Assembly (NCBI GenBank): GCA_025210965.1
Contig: JAOAQY010000046.1
Span: forward strand, 1-55,572
Reading direction: 5' to 3'
From: Tissierellales bacterium
GTDB taxonomy: Bacteria; Bacillota; Clostridia; Tissierellales; JAOAQY01
Length of the DNA stretch: 55,572 nt
The translations under genes and the position numbers were made by a program. The notes beneath the pieces were generated by a model. That model had not been told where the DNA came from, searched no databases, and saw only the letters and a list, made by a program, of their open reading frames with translations. Of the stretch, positions 34,386 to 49,171 are shown piece after piece (position 1 is the stretch's first letter; every line of letters begins with the position of its first letter).

Positions 34386-35510
34386 TTATTTTACATTACT
34401 GGCTTTAAAATTGTATACTGGCTTTATGACATCTATCACTTCAACGCTTTCATCTATATTATTCAATATTTCTTCCATGCTTTTATATGCCATGGGACAT
34501 TCATCTAATGTTCCTGTATTTATTGAAGTCGTATATACGCCTTTCATTTCTTTTTTATACTCGGATAAAGTAAATGTATTCTTGGTTTCAGATCTACTCA
34601 TTATTCTACCCGCTCCGTGCGGCGCAGAATAATTCCAATCAGCATTTCCTTTTCCTCTACATATTAAACTACCATCTCTCATATTTATGGGGATCAATAA
34701 TTTCTCCTCTAACTTAGCAGAAACTGCTCCCTTTCTTAAAATCATACTCTCAATATCTATATAATTGTGTATTGTAGTAAATTCATCAGCTATTTTAAAT
34801 TTCATATTTTTTACTATCTCGCTAATCATAGCCCTTCTATTATAGTAAGCATACTCTTGTACTATTTTCATATCATGAATATAATCATCCATATGTTCGC
34901 CTTCTAGATACGCTAAATTTTTAGGAATATTTTCCATTGATTGACTTTCACTAGCATAATTACATGCTAAATTTTGATAATAGCATGCAACCTCATGTCC
35001 TAAATTTCTGCTACCAGAATGGATAGTCAAATAATACCTTTTACTACTATCTCTGCCTAATTCTATGAAATGATTTCCTCCACCTAAACTCCCTAAACTA
35101 AGCCTTGCTCTTTTCAAATTAATCGTTCCGTTCTTTAAGCATCTTAATTTATCAATATTTATGTTCTCGACATATTTATGTTCGTTCTCTCTAATATTGA
35201 ATCCTGCCGGTATTTTTTGATATATCAGCTTATCTAATTTTTGTAGCTCTACATTCCTATTCTTTAACTCTATAGTTTCCATTCCACAGCCTATATCAAC
35301 TCCTACTAAATTTGGAACTACCTTATCACCTATAGTCATTGTAGTCCCAATAGTTGAACCCATTCCAGCGTGTACATCTGGCATTATTCTAATCTTACTT
35401 TCCTCAATAAATTTTTGATCACAAAGTAATTTGATTTGGTCAACTGCATTTTCATCAATATTATCAGTATATACAATTGCTTTATTATATTTTCCTTCTA
35501 TTGTTTTCAT
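34386..35510 (-). CDS. rtcB: RtcB-family RNA ligase
   Basis: This 374-residue protein has the RtcB core: PDVHAGMGSTIG (His/Cys Mn site region), GVDIGCGME (Cys ligand), SLGSLGGGNHFIELG, HSGSRNLGHEVA and SAPHGAGRIMSRSE, whose His accepts GMP. RtcB joins 2',3'-cyclic phosphate and 5'-OH RNA ends. It is the short form without an intein, and there is no archease, RtcA or RNA-targeting gene beside it, so it may serve general RNA repair. AGGAG precedes the ATG. Confidence 0.92.
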   Translation of the reverse strand: MKTIEGKYNKAIVYTDNIDENAVDQIKLLCDQKFIEESKIRIMPDVHAGMGSTIGTTMTIGDKVVPNLVGVDIGCGMETIELKNRNVELQKLDKLIYQKIPAGFNIRENEHKYVENINIDKLRCLKNGTINLKRARLSLGSLGGGNHFIELGRDSSKRYYLTIHSGSRNLGHEVACYYQNLACNYASESQSMENIPKNLAYLEGEHMDDYIHDMKIVQEYAYYNRRAMISEIVKNMKFKIADEFTTIHNYIDIESMILRKGAVSAKLEEKLLIPINMRDGSLICRGKGNADWNYSAPHGAGRIMSRSETKNTFTLSEYKKEMKGVYTTSINTGTLDECPMAYKSMEEILNNIDESVEVIDVIKPVYNFKASNVK

Positions 35511-36822: not shown

Positions 36823-37473
36823 CTACTTAACAATTTTTATTCTCGACTTAGGATTTAGCCCCATTGCATTGGCTTCTTCTATATCGAGATGACATTCAAG
36901 TGTTGACGTATCATTAGCTCTAATGGCAACATTATCATATGTGCCGCCCCTTAAACCATCAACCTTTATAGACACTATATCTCCATCATTTACATCTAAG
37001 CGCTTCGCATCTTGTATGTTCATGTGAATATGTCTTTGTGCTACTATAAGACCTTCATCTAGCTGAACAGCTCCTTTTAAACCAATAAGTGTAATCGACG
37101 CTGTATTTTTCAAATCACCAGACAATCTTGTATGCATTTTAGCTCCTAATTTTCTGCAATCACCAGCTAATACTTCAACCTGTGTCTTGCTTCTAACTGG
37201 ACCTAGTACTCTAACTTTTTCAATAGCACCTTTAGGCCCGCATATTGTAACTAGCTCTTTACAAGCAAATTGACCTTTCTGAGATAAATCTTTTAATTTA
37301 GTAAGCTTATAACCCTCTCCAAAAAGACTCTCTAAATCAGACTGTGAAAGATGTATATGTCTATTTGATATTCCAACTGGAATTGCTGACTTATCTTCTA
37401 CTTCTTCTGACTTAGCTTGATTATTCTTGGCAAATTCTAACAAAAGCTTAAATAGCTCTTCATAGTTTTCCAT
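36823..37473 (-). CDS. pduL: PduL-type phosphate acyltransferase
   Basis: This 216-residue enzyme converts acetyl-CoA and phosphate to acetyl phosphate. The zinc-site motifs are SNRHIHLS (near residue 33) and AQRHIHMN (near 144), with the repeat KVRVLGPVRSKTQVEV. The first 18 residues, MENYEELFKLLLEFAKNN, form an amphipathic helix typical of an encapsulation peptide, so it probably works inside the shell. Its ATG overlaps the stop of the upstream aldehyde dehydrogenase (TAATG). Length fits the family. Confidence 0.95.
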   Translation of the reverse strand: MENYEELFKLLLEFAKNNQAKSEEVEDKSAIPVGISNRHIHLSQSDLESLFGEGYKLTKLKDLSQKGQFACKELVTICGPKGAIEKVRVLGPVRSKTQVEVLAGDCRKLGAKMHTRLSGDLKNTASITLIGLKGAVQLDEGLIVAQRHIHMNIQDAKRLDVNDGDIVSIKVDGLRGGTYDNVAIRANDTSTLECHLDIEEANAMGLNPKSRIKIVK

Positions 37474-39071
37474 TAGCTTATCCCTTTCATGGCATTAACT
37501 ATTTGACCTACTAAATCTAAAAGTTCTTCATTCTTTGCACTTTCATCTTTGCACTCTGAGTTAATACAGCACTGTGCATCATCCTTTGATTCTGCTAAAA
37601 CTTTCTTAGCAGCAGTAGCAATTTCAGAAGGACTCATATTCATGAAGTTATTCTTACTTGCATTGCAATTTTCAAAAGTTTTAATTTTATTAAATGTTGG
37701 ATCATTTGACGCCAAACTAGCACAGTCTTTTAATCCATAAGCTACTCTTTTAAGATTTATAAGATGTTTTGGTGTAACATTCTCTGATACTGAACTTCCA
37801 CCCCAAGTACCACAACCTAATGTAAATGATGGGTTTAATCCAGTACTTGCACCTGTTCCACCTTGTGCTCCGCCAGTATTTACTAAAATACGTGAAGCTG
37901 GTTTCTTTGCAAATTTCTCAACTATTTCTCTACATTCAGTATGGATACTCATAGTATGACCTATTCCATTTTGTAATAATTCAATACTAAGTTCACAAGC
38001 TTCTTCCCAGTCATTTACTGTATAGAATGCAAGTACAGTAGTAAGTTTTTCATAAGATAATGGGTTTCCCTTGCCTACTCCTGATTGTTCTCCTATAAGA
38101 ACCTTTGTCTCTGATGGAATAGTAAAACCTGCAGCATTTGCAATAACTTGAGCACTTCTACCTACAAATTTAGCATTCATTGCATTTCCATTTTTAAATA
38201 ATAATTTGCAAACACTTTCTGTTTGCTCAGCTGTCATGAAATATCCACCTTGTTTTTTAAGTTCTGCCACGACAGCATCTTTATTACAATTCTCACAAAT
38301 GATAGATTGTTCTGATGCACAGATAGTACCATTATCAAATGTCTTACTTGCAATAATATTTCTAACTGCTTTTTCTACATCAGCAGTTTTTTCTATATAA
38401 GCAGGCGAATTTCCAGCACCTACTCCAAGTGCAGGTTTTCCAGCACTATAAGCCGCTTTTACCATTCCAGGGCCACCAGTAGCTATTATTATCGATACTT
38501 CTTCGCATTTCATTAACTCATTTGTAGCCGCAAGTGATAACGTTGTTAATCCTGATATAATGTTTTCAGGTGCACCCGCTTCAACAGCTGCATCATGCAT
38601 CAATTGAATAGCTTTCGTTGTACACTTAGCTGCTGCAGGATGTGGAGAAAATACTATGGCATTTCGTGATTTTATAGAAATCATGGCTTTAAATATCGCT
38701 GTCGACGTAGGATTTGTTGATGGTACTATTCCCATAACCAATCCTACTGGTTCTGCAATTTCTATAATTCCATTTGTCTTATCTTCACAAATAGTTCCAA
38801 TAGTTTTCATATCTTTTATCGAATCATAAAGGATACCTGCTGCCATGTGATTTTTATACGTTTTATCTGCAACTTTACCAAATCCAGTTTCTTCTACCGC
38901 CATTTCCGCTAAACATACTGAATTTTCTTCTGCTACTCTAACCATATTTTGCAAAATTCTATCAATCTGCTCTTCACTATAATCCGCAATTTTATTTGCT
39001 GCTACCTTTCCAAGTCTAGCAATATTTCTAGCTTCTTGGATTGAACGCAAATCCTTATCAAAGTTTTCCAT
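37473..39071 (-). CDS. CoA-acylating acetaldehyde dehydrogenase, microcompartment type
   Basis: From the ATG at 39071 (AAAGGAAG upstream; a first ATG at 39089 is less well placed) it has 532 residues. It oxidises acetaldehyde with NAD and CoA to acetyl-CoA. The catalytic Cys is Cys251 in FDNGTICASEQS, with GIVPSTNPTS (115-124) and GVGAGNSPAYI (217). The C-terminus extends past the enzyme fold (DDAQCCINSECKD) and ends in NEELLDLVGQIVNAMKGIS, an amphipathic helix that looks like an encapsulation peptide. In the choline pathway this is the CutF-type step. It is the catalytic twin of the protein at 47007. Confidence 0.93.
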   Translation of the reverse strand: MENFDKDLRSIQEARNIARLGKVAANKIADYSEEQIDRILQNMVRVAEENSVCLAEMAVEETGFGKVADKTYKNHMAAGILYDSIKDMKTIGTICEDKTNGIIEIAEPVGLVMGIVPSTNPTSTAIFKAMISIKSRNAIVFSPHPAAAKCTTKAIQLMHDAAVEAGAPENIISGLTTLSLAATNELMKCEEVSIIIATGGPGMVKAAYSAGKPALGVGAGNSPAYIEKTADVEKAVRNIIASKTFDNGTICASEQSIICENCNKDAVVAELKKQGGYFMTAEQTESVCKLLFKNGNAMNAKFVGRSAQVIANAAGFTIPSETKVLIGEQSGVGKGNPLSYEKLTTVLAFYTVNDWEEACELSIELLQNGIGHTMSIHTECREIVEKFAKKPASRILVNTGGAQGGTGASTGLNPSFTLGCGTWGGSSVSENVTPKHLINLKRVAYGLKDCASLASNDPTFNKIKTFENCNASKNNFMNMSPSEIATAAKKVLAESKDDAQCCINSECKDESAKNEELLDLVGQIVNAMKGIS

Positions 39072-39103
39072 ATATATACTTCCTTTCATAACCTAAAGAA
39101 CAA

Positions 39104-43380: not shown

Positions 43381-44334
43381 TTAGTGTCTTATTACCTTTG
43401 CAAATAAATCATATTTTTTTATCCACGATTCAATTCTATCCAAATCTTCTTTTGCAAGACTTGGATCTCCTTCTATTTGATACTCCATTCCAAGCTGTTT
43501 ATACTTATTTACTCCCATCTTGTGGTATGGCAATAAATCAATACCTTTGAAATTTTTATACTCTTTATATTGAGACAAAAATTGCATAGTATTCTCGATC
43601 TCTTCCTGAGAATCATTTATATCTTTTAGCAATGGCATTCGAATCTTAACATTGTGTTTTTTGTTAAGCAGTTCTTCAAGATTTTCTAGTATTCTCTCAT
43701 TGCGAACTCCAGTAAGTTCGTAGTGTTTATCTGAATCAAAATGCTTTATATCAAAGAGAAATAAATCAACAAATTCTGCAGCCTTTACTATTGTTTCTTT
43801 CTTTGTGTACCCACATGTTTCTATAGCAGTATTGATTCCTTCTTGCTTACAAGCCATGAGCAAGCTTATTGCAGCCTCAGGTTGCATCAATACTTCTCCT
43901 CCACTTAGGGTAACTCCTCCACCTGACATCTCATAGAACGTTCTGTCCTCTTCTATAATTTCTAGAAGTTCTGATATTGTCTTTTGTTCTCCAACTATAG
44001 ATATAGCCGAGTTTACACAAGCCTCTTTACACTTTCCGCATCCTATACAATCTACACTGTGATCTACCTCATGTTTCAAAGTTTCGTTTGAAATTATATG
44101 TTTAGATACAGGACATGCTAATGCACAAGCTCCGCAGTTTTCACATAGATTAGTCTTAACCATAACTCTAGGCTTTTTCATTAATCCTTCTGGATTTGCA
44201 CACCATTTACATCTGAGAGGACATCCTTGAAAAAACACTATAGTTCGAATTCCGTCACCATCATACATATTGTATTTCTGTATATTAAATATTGTTGCTT
44301 TTCGTTCAAGTATACCTAAGTTCTTATCACTCAT
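43381..44334 (-). CDS. cutD: CutC-activating enzyme (radical SAM)
   Basis: About 317 residues from the ATG at 44334 (GGGAG upstream). It uses SAM and a [4Fe-4S] cluster to place a glycyl radical on CutC. The radical SAM motif is GCPLRCKWC (CX3CX2C), followed by a ferredoxin-like insert with CENCGACALACP and CIGCGKCKEAC, then SGGGVTLSGGEVLMQ and DLLPYHKMG. This layout is that of glycyl-radical activases with two extra clusters. It lies 80 bases behind cutC, with a hairpin in the gap. Confidence 0.95.
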   Translation of the reverse strand: MSDKNLGILERKATIFNIQKYNMYDGDGIRTIVFFQGCPLRCKWCANPEGLMKKPRVMVKTNLCENCGACALACPVSKHIISNETLKHEVDHSVDCIGCGKCKEACVNSAISIVGEQKTISELLEIIEEDRTFYEMSGGGVTLSGGEVLMQPEAAISLLMACKQEGINTAIETCGYTKKETIVKAAEFVDLFLFDIKHFDSDKHYELTGVRNERILENLEELLNKKHNVKIRMPLLKDINDSQEEIENTMQFLSQYKEYKNFKGIDLLPYHKMGVNKYKQLGMEYQIEGDPSLAKEDLDRIESWIKKYDLFAKVIRH

Positions 44335-44373
44335 ATCACTATTCTCCCGTTTGTTACCTTCATAATTATGACT

Positions 44374-44398
44374 CCTCTGACCCATTTGGGTCAGAAAA
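44374..44398 (-). other. Intergenic hairpin between cutC and cutD
   Basis: TCTGACCC (44376-44383) and GGGTCAGA (44388-44395) form a perfect stem with a 4-base loop. No T-run follows in the cutD direction, so it may stop decay or processing rather than transcription. A weak terminator that lowers cutD output relative to cutC is also possible. Confidence 0.55.
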
Positions 44399-44417: not shown

Positions 44418-46958
44418 TTAGAAATGATCTAACATAGTTCTACTGATGATTTCATCCTGAACATCCTTACACAACTCAACAAAGAATGCACTATAACCAG
44501 CAACTCTAACAATCAAATCTCTATATTGTTCTGGATGCTTTTGAGCTTCTATAAGAGTTTCATTGTCTAAATAGTTAAACTGAATTTCTCCAAGTTGAAG
44601 TGCACAAGCACTACGTAATAATGTTACAATTCCTTGCTCTCCCTCTGGAGTATCTAACAATCCTGAAATCAACTTAAAGTTGTGAACCATTCCTATATTC
44701 ATATCTTCACAAGACATCTTTGAAACAGATTTTATAATAGCTGTTGGTCCTTTATAATCCGCACCTTGTGATGGACTAATTCCGTCTGATAATGGCATCC
44801 AAGCTTTACGTCCATTAGCAGTAGCTCCTGTCAATTGACCAAAAGGAGTATTGTTTGAAATAGACAATGTTCCGTGGCTAAGAACTGAGTACAATGTCTT
44901 GTACTGACGATGTTCTTGCTCTGTAAAGTTGATTAGGTCTGCTGCTATCAAATCTGCATAGTCATCATCATTGCCGTACTTTGGAGCATCTAAACAATCT
45001 TTTCTAAGCTTTTCATAACCAACAAAATCTGCTTTAAGAGCTTCATTCATTTCTTTTAATGTATATTTCTTATCTTCAAATACTAATTTTTTGATAGCTG
45101 CCATAGAGTCAGTATAAGTAGCTAATCCACTCCAGATTACACCAGGTCCGAAGTTGTACATAGCTCCACCAGCTTCTACTCCTCTAGCATTTTCCATACA
45201 ACCCTCATACATCATTGACATAAGTGGTTTTGGAGCTAATTCTTTGTGTACTCTCTGAGAAATAACTGTGGCAACACTTGTCCACTTAGTAATATATTTT
45301 ATTTGATCTTTTACTGCCGCTTCAAATTGCTCATATGTTTTAAACTGATCTAAATCTCCAGCATCTGGACAAACTGGTTTGCCATACCAAAGTGGTACAC
45401 CGTGATTCATTGCAAGTTCTATACATATTGGCCACTGAGTATATCCTGTTGAAGTCCACTGATATAATCTACCTGCTTTTTGTGGTTCAACACAGCCCAT
45501 CAAACAATAGTCTCTAGCATCTTCAATAGATACTCCTTTTGACAACATCATCTTTATGTGAACATCATCAAAGTGACAAGCTGGGAATCCCATTCCTGAT
45601 TTGATAACTTCTACGATTTTCTTAAGGTATTCCTTTGGAGATGATTTGTGAATTCTACAAGCTAATGATGGCTGATAAATTTTCACATGACGAACCGCAT
45701 CCATAAGCAAGTAAGTTAATTCATTAGTAGCATCTCTACCTTCTCTAGTAACTCCACCCACACACATATTTACAAATGGTTGGTATCCTGCAAAGAATTT
45801 TGATGCATCTTCACTAGTAAGCCACATCATTTCCGACATCTTTACAAGCATACAACTAGCTAATTCAAATGCTTCATACTCACTCATTCTACCTGACTCA
45901 AGGTCAGCTTTATATAGAGGATACATGTACTGGTCAACTCTACCGATAGACATTCCCGTTTGATTCTCTTCAACAACTAAAAGAGACTCTATAGTCCATA
46001 CAGATTGTATCGCTTCCCAGAAATTACTTGGCTTATGTGCTGGTACTCTAGCATTTACTTCTGAAATTTTCAAAAGCTCAGCTTTTCTTTTAGGGTTTAT
46101 TTCCTTTGCTGCCAATTCAGCTGCATAATCAGACATACGCTTTGCATATATCATAACCCCTTCTGCTGTATCTATTAATGATTTATAGAAATAAATTTTC
46201 TCTATATCATCTGGATTTTCGTAGCTAAGGTTCGCTAAATGCTCATTAGCTTCACTTATAATATCTAGCATACCTTTTTTCATAAGAATTACATCGTAAC
46301 CTGGATTTGAATCTCCACCACCATTTACTGCATGGTATGAACAATCAGATACAAATGACTCTCCCGATAATTCCCAAACACCAGCTTCTCTATATTGATC
46401 TTCGCAATATTCATCAACTGATTTACCTTTCCAATATGGAAAGATCTCATCTCTTAAAACTTTTTTGTCTTCTTCTGAAATATAGAATGGATCTTGAGGA
46501 CGAGTTGCTATAGTTTCAAGCTCATCTGACAACCATCTCCAAGCTATATCTGGTGAAAATGATCCAGCACGAGGCTTACCATTTGGAGCACCTACTATTA
46601 ATTCGTGATCTTGAATTACTAGTGGAGCATTTTCACAACAATATTTAAAACATTTCCCGCGCAATAATGCCTTTGGCATTCCAGGATTTTCTTTAGACAT
46701 TTTTGTAATAGCTTTAGCTCTGTGAATAGTTATAGATGGTACATGCTTTAAATAATTTTCTTTTATCTTAACTAAACGATCTGTAAGACCAGTTGGTACC
46801 TTTCCATCATTCTCACAATCAACACATTCTGTATGAGTTTCTTCTTTTGTTATTTCTTTTGAAACACTTTGAAACATCTTCATCAAACTAGCTCTTTCTG
46901 CTTCAGACATATTCTCAGTAGCTTCCATAAATTTAGCTGAAAATTCACTAATATCCAC
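44418..46958 (-). CDS. cutC: Choline trimethylamine-lyase (glycyl radical enzyme)
   Basis: This 846-residue enzyme splits choline to trimethylamine and acetaldehyde in the shell. The radical Gly is Gly821 in RVAGYSAFF, the thiyl Cys is Cys489 and the base is Glu491 in GCVEPQ. Thr502 in YQWTSTG, Asp216 in NGGGDS and Phe395 in GYQPF match the choline-contacting residues known for the Desulfovibrio alaskensis enzyme at the same numbers, which excludes glycerol or diol dehydratases. The N-terminus has a short helical extension. The start is a GTG at 46958 behind GAGG. It should be co-expressed with cutD. Confidence 0.97.
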
Positions 46959-47006: not shown

Positions 47007-48473
47007 CTATTTTTCCAATATTTTTTTCAATATATCTTCTAGTAACTTGTAATTATCTTTCTCCGCTGATTTATCGGCAATCTCCGATGTAAATGCTTCT
47101 TTACCAAACATATCCGCAACGCCTCTGATTTCGTATCCAACTTTTCTGATATAAATCAAATTCATCGGTGATACATTATCTGATGTCATTCCTTTTCCTG
47201 CTGATCCACTCCCAAGAGTCATTGAAGGAAATAAGTTGGTTGTTCCACCCATACTTCCAAATGTCCCTGGCGTATTTACAAGAATTCTTCCAACTGGTTT
47301 TTTTATTGCAAATTGTCGAATTACATCCTCATCTTTAGAATGAATTATAAGTGTATGTCCATATTTTTCTGTAAGCAATAACTCTATACATTTTTCACAA
47401 GCATGCATCCAGTCATCTTCTATATAAAATGCTAGTACTGGTGATAATTTTTCCTTTGAATAAAAATTATCTTTAGATACGTATTTTTGTTTAGAAATCA
47501 ATATTTTCGTATTATCTTTTACAGAAAATCCAGCTCTCTTTGACAAAAATTGAGGTGTTTTTCCAATCATATCTAAATCCAAACTACCATCTTTATTCGT
47601 TAGGACTTTAGCTAATTTCTCCGCTTCATCTTCACTCATAAAATATGCGCCCTTATTTAAAAACTCGATTTCAACTTCTTTTGCAATACTGCTATCTACG
47701 ACAACTGCTTGCTCTGCAGCAGATACAACTCCATTATCAAAACTTTTACTGCAAACTATATCATCAACTGCCTTGACTACATCTGCAGTACGTTCTATAA
47801 ATGCGGGTCCATTTCCATTTCCACCATAAATCACAGGCTTTCCTGATTTATATGAATCTTTTAACATCTCTGAAACTCCAGTATTCATGATAAGAGCTGT
47901 GTTTTTATGATTCATAAGTTCTATTGAACCACTTTTACTTATCGTATGAAGATATGCAAGGGCACCTTCTGGTAATCCAACTCCCTCAGCTGCTCTTATT
48001 AGTATTTCAAGCGCTCTTTTCACTACATTTTGCGATCTCTTATGAGGTGAAAATACAATTGCATTTCCTGATTTTATCGCTATAAGTGATTTATATATAG
48101 TAGTAGATACTGGATTAGTCGGTGCACAAAATGCAACAATTACTCCCATCGGAACACCTATACTAAGTGTTTTACCTATATCATCTTCATCTATAACCCC
48201 AACACATTTCATTGATTTCAATCTATCATTGAGATACTTGCAAACAAATTTATTTTTTATATACTTATCTTCAACTTTCCCATACTCTGTTTCCTCAGCC
48301 GATAGCTCAGATAATTCTTTCAAATGCTTTTGTATTTCTTCAATCATTCTTGCAACAATTTCATCAAGTTTTTCTTGAGGAAATGTAGATAATTTCTGCT
48401 GTGCTTCATGAGCATTTTCAATTAGAATTCTTGCTTCTTGCATAGAGAGTAAATCATTATCTATAATTTTCAT
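47007..48473 (-). CDS. Aldehyde dehydrogenase homologue with Cys251 replaced by Ser
   Basis: This 488-residue protein aligns without gaps to the acylating enzyme at 37473 up to residue 251: GVIVAFCAPTNPVS (110-123), GGNGNGPAFI (217) and FDNGVVSAAEQA (245-256). In place of the catalytic Cys is Ser251 (TCT at 47721-47723; a one-base change from TGT). The end DNYKLLEDILKKILEK is an amphipathic helix that looks like an encapsulation peptide. NAD-site residues remain. It is likely inactive as a thiol enzyme and may be a scaffold, a partner subunit or a hydrolase-like variant. It lies just before cutC. Confidence 0.92.
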   Translation of the reverse strand: MKIIDNDLLSMQEARILIENAHEAQQKLSTFPQEKLDEIVARMIEEIQKHLKELSELSAEETEYGKVEDKYIKNKFVCKYLNDRLKSMKCVGVIDEDDIGKTLSIGVPMGVIVAFCAPTNPVSTTIYKSLIAIKSGNAIVFSPHKRSQNVVKRALEILIRAAEGVGLPEGALAYLHTISKSGSIELMNHKNTALIMNTGVSEMLKDSYKSGKPVIYGGNGNGPAFIERTADVVKAVDDIVCSKSFDNGVVSAAEQAVVVDSSIAKEVEIEFLNKGAYFMSEDEAEKLAKVLTNKDGSLDLDMIGKTPQFLSKRAGFSVKDNTKILISKQKYVSKDNFYSKEKLSPVLAFYIEDDWMHACEKCIELLLTEKYGHTLIIHSKDEDVIRQFAIKKPVGRILVNTPGTFGSMGGTTNLFPSMTLGSGSAGKGMTSDNVSPMNLIYIRKVGYEIRGVADMFGKEAFTSEIADKSAEKDNYKLLEDILKKILEK

Positions 48474-48498: not shown

Positions 48499-48816
48499 TT
48501 AACCTTCTTGAGTTGGTATTAAGTTTTCTATAGCATAACGCTTTATGATTTTTTCTAAGTCTTCATGTGGTCTTGGAATGACAACTGAACTGTATAAATT
48601 GCCACCTTCCATTCCATTAACTGCTGCAACCCCAGCTTCTACCGCTGTTTTACAAGCTCCAACATCCCCACGTACTAACACAGAAATATAACCAGATGCA
48701 ACATTTTCATATCCCACTAGTTCTACATTTGATGCTTTACACATAGCATCTGCAGCTTCTAATGCAAATACTAAACCAAATGTTTCTATTAATCCTATAG
48801 CTTCATATCTAGCCAT
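48499..48816 (-). CDS. BMC-H shell protein
   Basis: This 105-residue hexamer-class protein reads AIGLIETFGLVFALEAADAM, ASGYISVLVRGDVGACKTAV and SSVVIPRPHEDLEKI. It differs from the other BMC-H proteins at the pore (ASG in place of GGG), so it may let different solutes pass. The C-terminal tail of about 15 residues (KRYAIENLIPTQEG) is extra. Pairs with the gene at 48845. Confidence 0.94.
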   Translation of the reverse strand: MARYEAIGLIETFGLVFALEAADAMCKASNVELVGYENVASGYISVLVRGDVGACKTAVEAGVAAVNGMEGGNLYSSVVIPRPHEDLEKIIKRYAIENLIPTQEG

Positions 48817-48844: not shown

Positions 48845-49141
48845 CTACAAATCAATATCGTGAACTGAAACTATATCTCCAACTTCACTAATAGGTCGTG
48901 GCATAACATTGCTAGCTGTCAATGTTCCTATCGCAGCCGCTGCTGCTGCTCCAGCTTCAACTGCTGACTTTACTGCTCCAACATCACCTTTCACCATAAT
49001 AGTTACAAGTGTCGACCCTATATTTTCATATGAAATCAATTCTACATTGGCTGCTTTTAACATTTTATCCGCTGCCTCTAATGCTGGAACCAAACCAACA
49101 GTTTCTATAAGACCTAATGCCTCATTTCCGTAATATCTCAC
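48845..49141 (-). CDS. BMC-H shell protein
   Basis: About 98 residues from a GTG at 49141 behind AGGAGG; an in-frame TTG at 49159 lies before the site. ALGLIETVGLVPALEAADKM, GSTLVTIMVKGDVGAVKSAVE and ASNVMPRPISEVGDI make a normal BMC-H. The pore is formed around IGSTL rather than GGG. It is the first shell gene of the operon. Confidence 0.94.
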   Translation of the reverse strand: MRYYGNEALGLIETVGLVPALEAADKMLKAANVELISYENIGSTLVTIMVKGDVGAVKSAVEAGAAAAAAIGTLTASNVMPRPISEVGDIVSVHDIDL

Positions 49142-49171
49142 AAGAAATCCTCCTCCCAAATTCTGATATTC

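Follow-up and report, generated by a model that had tools for sequence, protein, structure and literature searches.

A conserved aldehyde dehydrogenase homologue without its catalytic cysteine beside cutC, a possible core adaptor of GRM1 choline microcompartments

Why should a choline-utilization locus keep, directly upstream of cutC, a full-length aldehyde dehydrogenase (AldDH) homologue in which the catalytic cysteine is missing? The question is raised by a 488-residue protein, here called A1, encoded in a contig of 55,572 nucleotides from a Tissierellales bacterium (JAOAQY010000046.1), the whole of which is referred to as the window. The features of the window that concern us are as follows.

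36823-37473, minus strand: phosphate propanoyltransferase (PTAC), a compartment core enzyme (PF06130)
37473-39089, minus strand: active twin, an acylating acetaldehyde dehydrogenase with the catalytic Cys in FDNGTICASEQ (TIGR02518, 796.1 bits against a cut-off of 620.1)
43381-44385, minus strand: cutD, radical-SAM activating enzyme of CutC (PF04055 and Fer4 domains, plus position)
44418-46958, minus strand: cutC, choline trimethylamine-lyase (TIGR04394, 1634.6 bits against a cut-off of 1050)
47007-48473, minus strand: A1, Cys-less aldehyde dehydrogenase homologue, the second AldDH of GRM1 loci; 488 aa with an ATG start (open reading frame, TIGR02518, PF00171, orthologues in 40 other loci)
47010-47054, minus strand: C-terminal amphipathic helix of A1, residues 474-488 (NYKLLEDILKKILEK), a putative encapsulation peptide (helical moment test and low-confidence helix prediction)
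47721-47723 (read 47723-47721), minus strand: Ser251 codon TCT, at the catalytic Cys position
48499-48816, minus strand: BMC shell protein, immediately upstream of A1 (PF00936)
48845-49159, minus strand: BMC shell protein (PF00936)

The cutC gene lies 48 bp downstream of A1 and is followed by the gene for the radical-SAM activase; the identity of this neighbor as CutC is firm. Genes for BMC shell proteins, recognized by their PF00936 matches, are found on the flanks of the A1/cutC pair. With CutC, its activase, shell proteins and two AldDHs, the locus is of the GRM1 type with two AldDHs. About 1.3 kb past the PTAC gene, which lies at one end of the choline locus, is a gene for an RtcB-type RNA ligase family protein of 374 aa (34386-35510, minus strand; PF01139).

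A Cys-less AldDH in such a locus is already known in kind. Axen et al. (2014, PMC4207490) reported that whenever a GRM1 locus encodes two aldehyde dehydrogenases, one of them has the Cys replaced by Ser or Pro, and proposed a scaffold or regulator role for this second, presumably defunct enzyme. Sutter et al. (2021, PMC8217296) listed such a “putatively inactive second copy” for both the GRM1A and the GRM1B type. A1 does not differ from these proteins in any essential respect: it is found in the same type of locus (CutC, shell genes, two AldDHs), has the same replacement of Cys by Ser, and falls into a single clade with the other copies. It is thus a rediscovery in a further genome, and the novelty implied by a first-pass annotation of the window does not hold. 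What can be added is the occurrence of Ala as a third replacement, an origin in a single clade, an oxyanion Asn that most copies have lost, an altered nucleotide-binding loop, an orthologue-wide invariant patch off the catalytic loop, and the contrast with GRM2. In the open-access literature that we searched, no experiment testing the role of an A1-type protein was found.

The loss of the cysteine itself, claimed in the first-pass annotation, was borne out. Residues 245-255 of A1 read FDNGVVSAAEQ, with S251 in place of the Cys that was present at this column in 53/53 active homologues (twins, EutE-like proteins and AdhE). A1 shares its fold and overall sequence with the EutE-type acetylating acetaldehyde dehydrogenases (TIGR02518; 3k9d, 5j78), but differs from them both in lacking the catalytic Cys and in scoring 544.6 bits for TIGR02518, below the curated cut-off of this active family. 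The two proteins of the window had been described as lining up residue for residue; the alignment is indeed colinear, but they are far from near-identical, at ≈39% identity. Other active-site positions were mapped by motif and a near-constant offset, using Cphy1178 as a guide (C269, oxyanion N138, H387, E357 and loop 215-223; PMC4762007). Asn120, His144, Glu341 and His373 are all present in this copy, and to that extent the NAD-site motifs remain, as had been stated. The nucleotide-binding loop, however, is altered: TGGPGMVK has become TGVSEMLK and GVGAGN has become YGGNGN. This change was overlooked in the first-pass annotation, as was that of the oxyanion Asn in most orthologues (see below). 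The bulkier replacements G200V, G216Y and T122V suggest, from the sequence, that the cofactor cleft may be partly filled. By the lost Cys and the altered site, A1 would be a pseudoenzyme, predicted from its sequence to be inactive as a dehydrogenase.

The orthologue set comprised 40 Cys-less proteins, including that of the window, drawn from genome contigs and CutC-positive genomes of two phyla, to which one protein from Enterococcus raffinosus was added for a total of 41; the sampling is biased toward Clostridium. In the 40 proteins, the catalytic column holds Ser in 32, Pro in five, Ala in three and Cys in none, and the E. raffinosus protein adds a sixth Pro. In answer to whether Ser251 is conserved, the residue is thus Ser in 32/41 and otherwise Pro or Ala, but never Cys. 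A sequencing error at the codon is excluded as the cause of the Cys loss, since orthologues in many independent genomes also lack it. In the tree, a branch with an SH-aLRT value of 100 separates all of the Cys-less proteins from the others, consistent with a single loss without reversion, although the long branches L104 and L093 are placed less certainly.

Could A1 then catalyze some other reaction, with the His, Glu and Lys residues that remain, with Ser251, or with a Cys at a new position (C116 in the window copy)? K70 is mostly conserved among the 40 orthologues, His373 is kept in 36 and Glu341 in 37. Furthermore, ≈38/40 share V122, Y216 and G217, pocket residues that are specific to the clade, as if the pocket had been re-used; Y216-G217 in the Cys-less clade takes the place of a G216-V217 that is invariant in active enzymes. 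Against this, Ser, Pro and Ala interchange at position 251, which makes chemistry at this residue unlikely and disfavors Ser251 as a nucleophile. C116 is present in only 22/40, and no Cys occurs within four residues downstream or three residues upstream of position 251. The oxyanion Asn120 is replaced by Ser in 26/40, while the window copy still has Asn, and the nucleotide loop follows the pattern TGGPGMVK to TGV(P/S)(E/K)(M/L)L. Some diverged members lack His373, which is Gln in four, or the nucleotide loop, and in E. raffinosus and L104 the active site is eroded further while the gene is retained. We therefore consider a different chemistry improbable.

The loss of catalytic residues might also point to a functionless, decaying duplicate. 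A1 does evolve faster than its neighbors, with a mean pairwise protein difference of 0.41, compared to 0.33 for the twin and 0.24 for CutC, and a few branches, L104 and L093, are very long. However, the reading frame is intact in 41/41 orthologues, which are spread over Clostridia, Enterococcus and Desulfobacterota. In estimable pairs, dN/dS was 0.04-0.15, mostly slightly above the values for the twin and CutC; several pairs could not be estimated, probably due to saturation. A1 is under purifying selection. A gene at the same position in Clostridium ljungdahlii, CLJU_RS19625, which was matched to A1 by synteny, is induced by choline (log2 7.2; PMC12016505) and is thus expressed together with the choline pathway. 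Decay is scarcely credible in the face of these data. The first-pass annotation had named free variation of the residue, together with decay of the gene, as one outcome that would speak against it. Only the first half was seen, as variation among Ser, Pro and Ala, and this combination of a variable residue 251 and an undecayed gene fits a structural pseudoenzyme better than the Ser251-based chemistry that had also been proposed.

The link to cutC, from which a partner role had been argued, proved to be strong. In 40/40 mapped orthologues, the gene is upstream of cutC on the same strand, and in 36 it is directly adjacent (within 200 bp). Wherever the retrieved locus span covered the second AldDH, that protein carries the Cys. 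At four CutC loci above the cut-off, no Cys-less copy was present in the retrieved span: L091, L092, L110 and a divergent second locus of G441. A whole-genome search of the L091, L092 and L110 genomes gave no clear orthologue, with the Cys column of one match in G499 left out of consideration. Two of the genomes in which no dead copy was found are related Bacillota and a third belongs to the Desulfobacterota; A1 is therefore not essential to every choline locus. In the related L091 and L092 (genomes G499 and G537), a BMC shell gene is located directly upstream of cutC, at the site where the dead AldDH would be expected, and these natural absences are possible comparison cases. In three Desulfobacterota loci (L107, L108 and L109), the active twin is drawn from an EutE-like subfamily other than that of the Bacillota twins, while CutC and the dead copy are orthologous, which suggests that the active enzyme was replaced.

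What has been conserved in A1 is the fold. The AlphaFold2 model of A1 matched the acylating ALDH 3k9d with a Foldseek E-value of 3e-41, although the model is weak from residue 416 onward (pLDDT < 50), a region that covers the C-terminal oligomerization strands. Together with the low dN/dS and the presence of Cys in 0/41 orthologues, this agrees with the earlier proposal that selection kept the fold and not thiol catalysis. When A1 proteins were compared to the twins of the same loci, with regions defined by position, conservation fell most in the catalytic loop (0.75 vs. 0.95) and was barely lower in the C-terminal region (0.84 vs. 0.87). Residues that are near-invariant in the 41 orthologues and not in active enzymes include I16, E19, E352, K361, C362, R443 and R450. 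All of them are far from the catalytic loop in the primary sequence, and they may form a docking surface. A conspicuous segment of the A1 clade is ExDWxxACEKC, in which E360 is Asp in E. raffinosus. Cys359 and Cys362, a CxxC-like pair on a helix, are invariant in all orthologues, while Cys362 is found in only about one third of active homologues.

The C-terminal amphipathic helix had likewise been noted from the sequence, and the description was upheld: the best 14-residue window has a helical moment of 0.66 (shuffle p = 0.007), AlphaFold2 places a helix at residues 474-487 with low confidence, and an amphipathic tail helix with p ≤ 0.05 was found in 30/40 orthologues. As in BMC cargo tails, the terminal amphipathic helix of A1 is joined via a linker, and by its resemblance to the encapsulation peptides of other BMC cargo the A1 tail is a putative member of that class. 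CutF of GRM2 bears such a tail, yet without CutC it did not co-migrate with shells (PMC6971018).

From the lost Cys in a single, selected clade, the position next to cutC, the active twin in the same locus and the retained fold and tail, we infer oligomerization, binding to CutC or the twin, and an adaptor role. On balance, A1 is probably an old, conserved pseudoenzyme whose task in type I (GRM1) choline microcompartments is to act as an adaptor or cross-linker of the core. The A1 lineage would have arisen once, lost its catalytic Cys early, and been retained for the structural work done by its ALDH fold and its C-terminal tail helix. It would assemble into oligomers of the ALDH type, either by itself or together with the active twin, and, as a multivalent adaptor, connect CutC with the aldehyde-processing core, while the tail helix may provide a link to other cargo or to the shell. 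Several points speak against this: some CutC loci lack a copy in the retrieved span, the conservation of His373 and Glu341 is not obviously needed for a purely structural role, and the tail helix could simply be inherited.

In the main rival reading, A1 has no partnership with CutC but joins the active twin in mixed tetramers, as a regulatory or stabilizing subunit that tunes the oxidation of acetaldehyde. Members of this ALDH family form tetramers (PMC4762007), and the active twin occurs in the loci. In addition, the A1 distance matrix tracks the twin matrix (Spearman 0.80, partial 0.67) more closely than the CutC matrix (0.60, partial 0.15), but phylogeny is uncontrolled in this comparison and three loci have a twin of another subfamily, and the co-variation was not relied upon as a partner test. 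In L107-L109, A1 is still orthologous in spite of the different twin, so there is no tie to one twin lineage, and the A1 gene adjoins cutC, not the twin. Such mixed tetramers as the sole role of A1 seem to us possible but unlikely, and their formation is compatible with an adaptor role.

An adaptor role for A1 finds a parallel in GRM2, whose AldDH CutF cross-links the core by binding a non-catalytic domain that CutC carries as an N-terminal extension (Kalnins et al. 2020, PMC6971018; PMC6325248). Klebsiella pneumoniae GRM2 has one AldDH, with the Cys present, and no dead copy. In both systems, a non-catalytic homologue of a core enzyme, in GRM2 part of a glycyl radical enzyme, would take part in core assembly with an AldDH, a parallel that we draw by analogy. 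The systems differ, however, in where the inactive part resides: in GRM2 it is built into CutC as a domain and the AldDH is the active partner, whereas in GRM1 it is a stand-alone AldDH. By this comparison, the dead AldDH may play a CutF-like adaptor role beside the short CutC of GRM1. More speculatively, and in our view rather doubtfully, the two cores might be assembled in mirror fashion, with the dead AldDH of GRM1 binding CutC through E352/K361/C362, I16/E19 and R443/R450, and the dead glycyl-radical domain fused to CutC in GRM2 binding the active AldDH.

In gut bacteria with GRM1 loci, trimethylamine is made via CutC. If A1 is needed for core assembly, it would constitute a non-catalytic control point of the trimethylamine pathway, and would also be a useful adaptor for engineered compartments.
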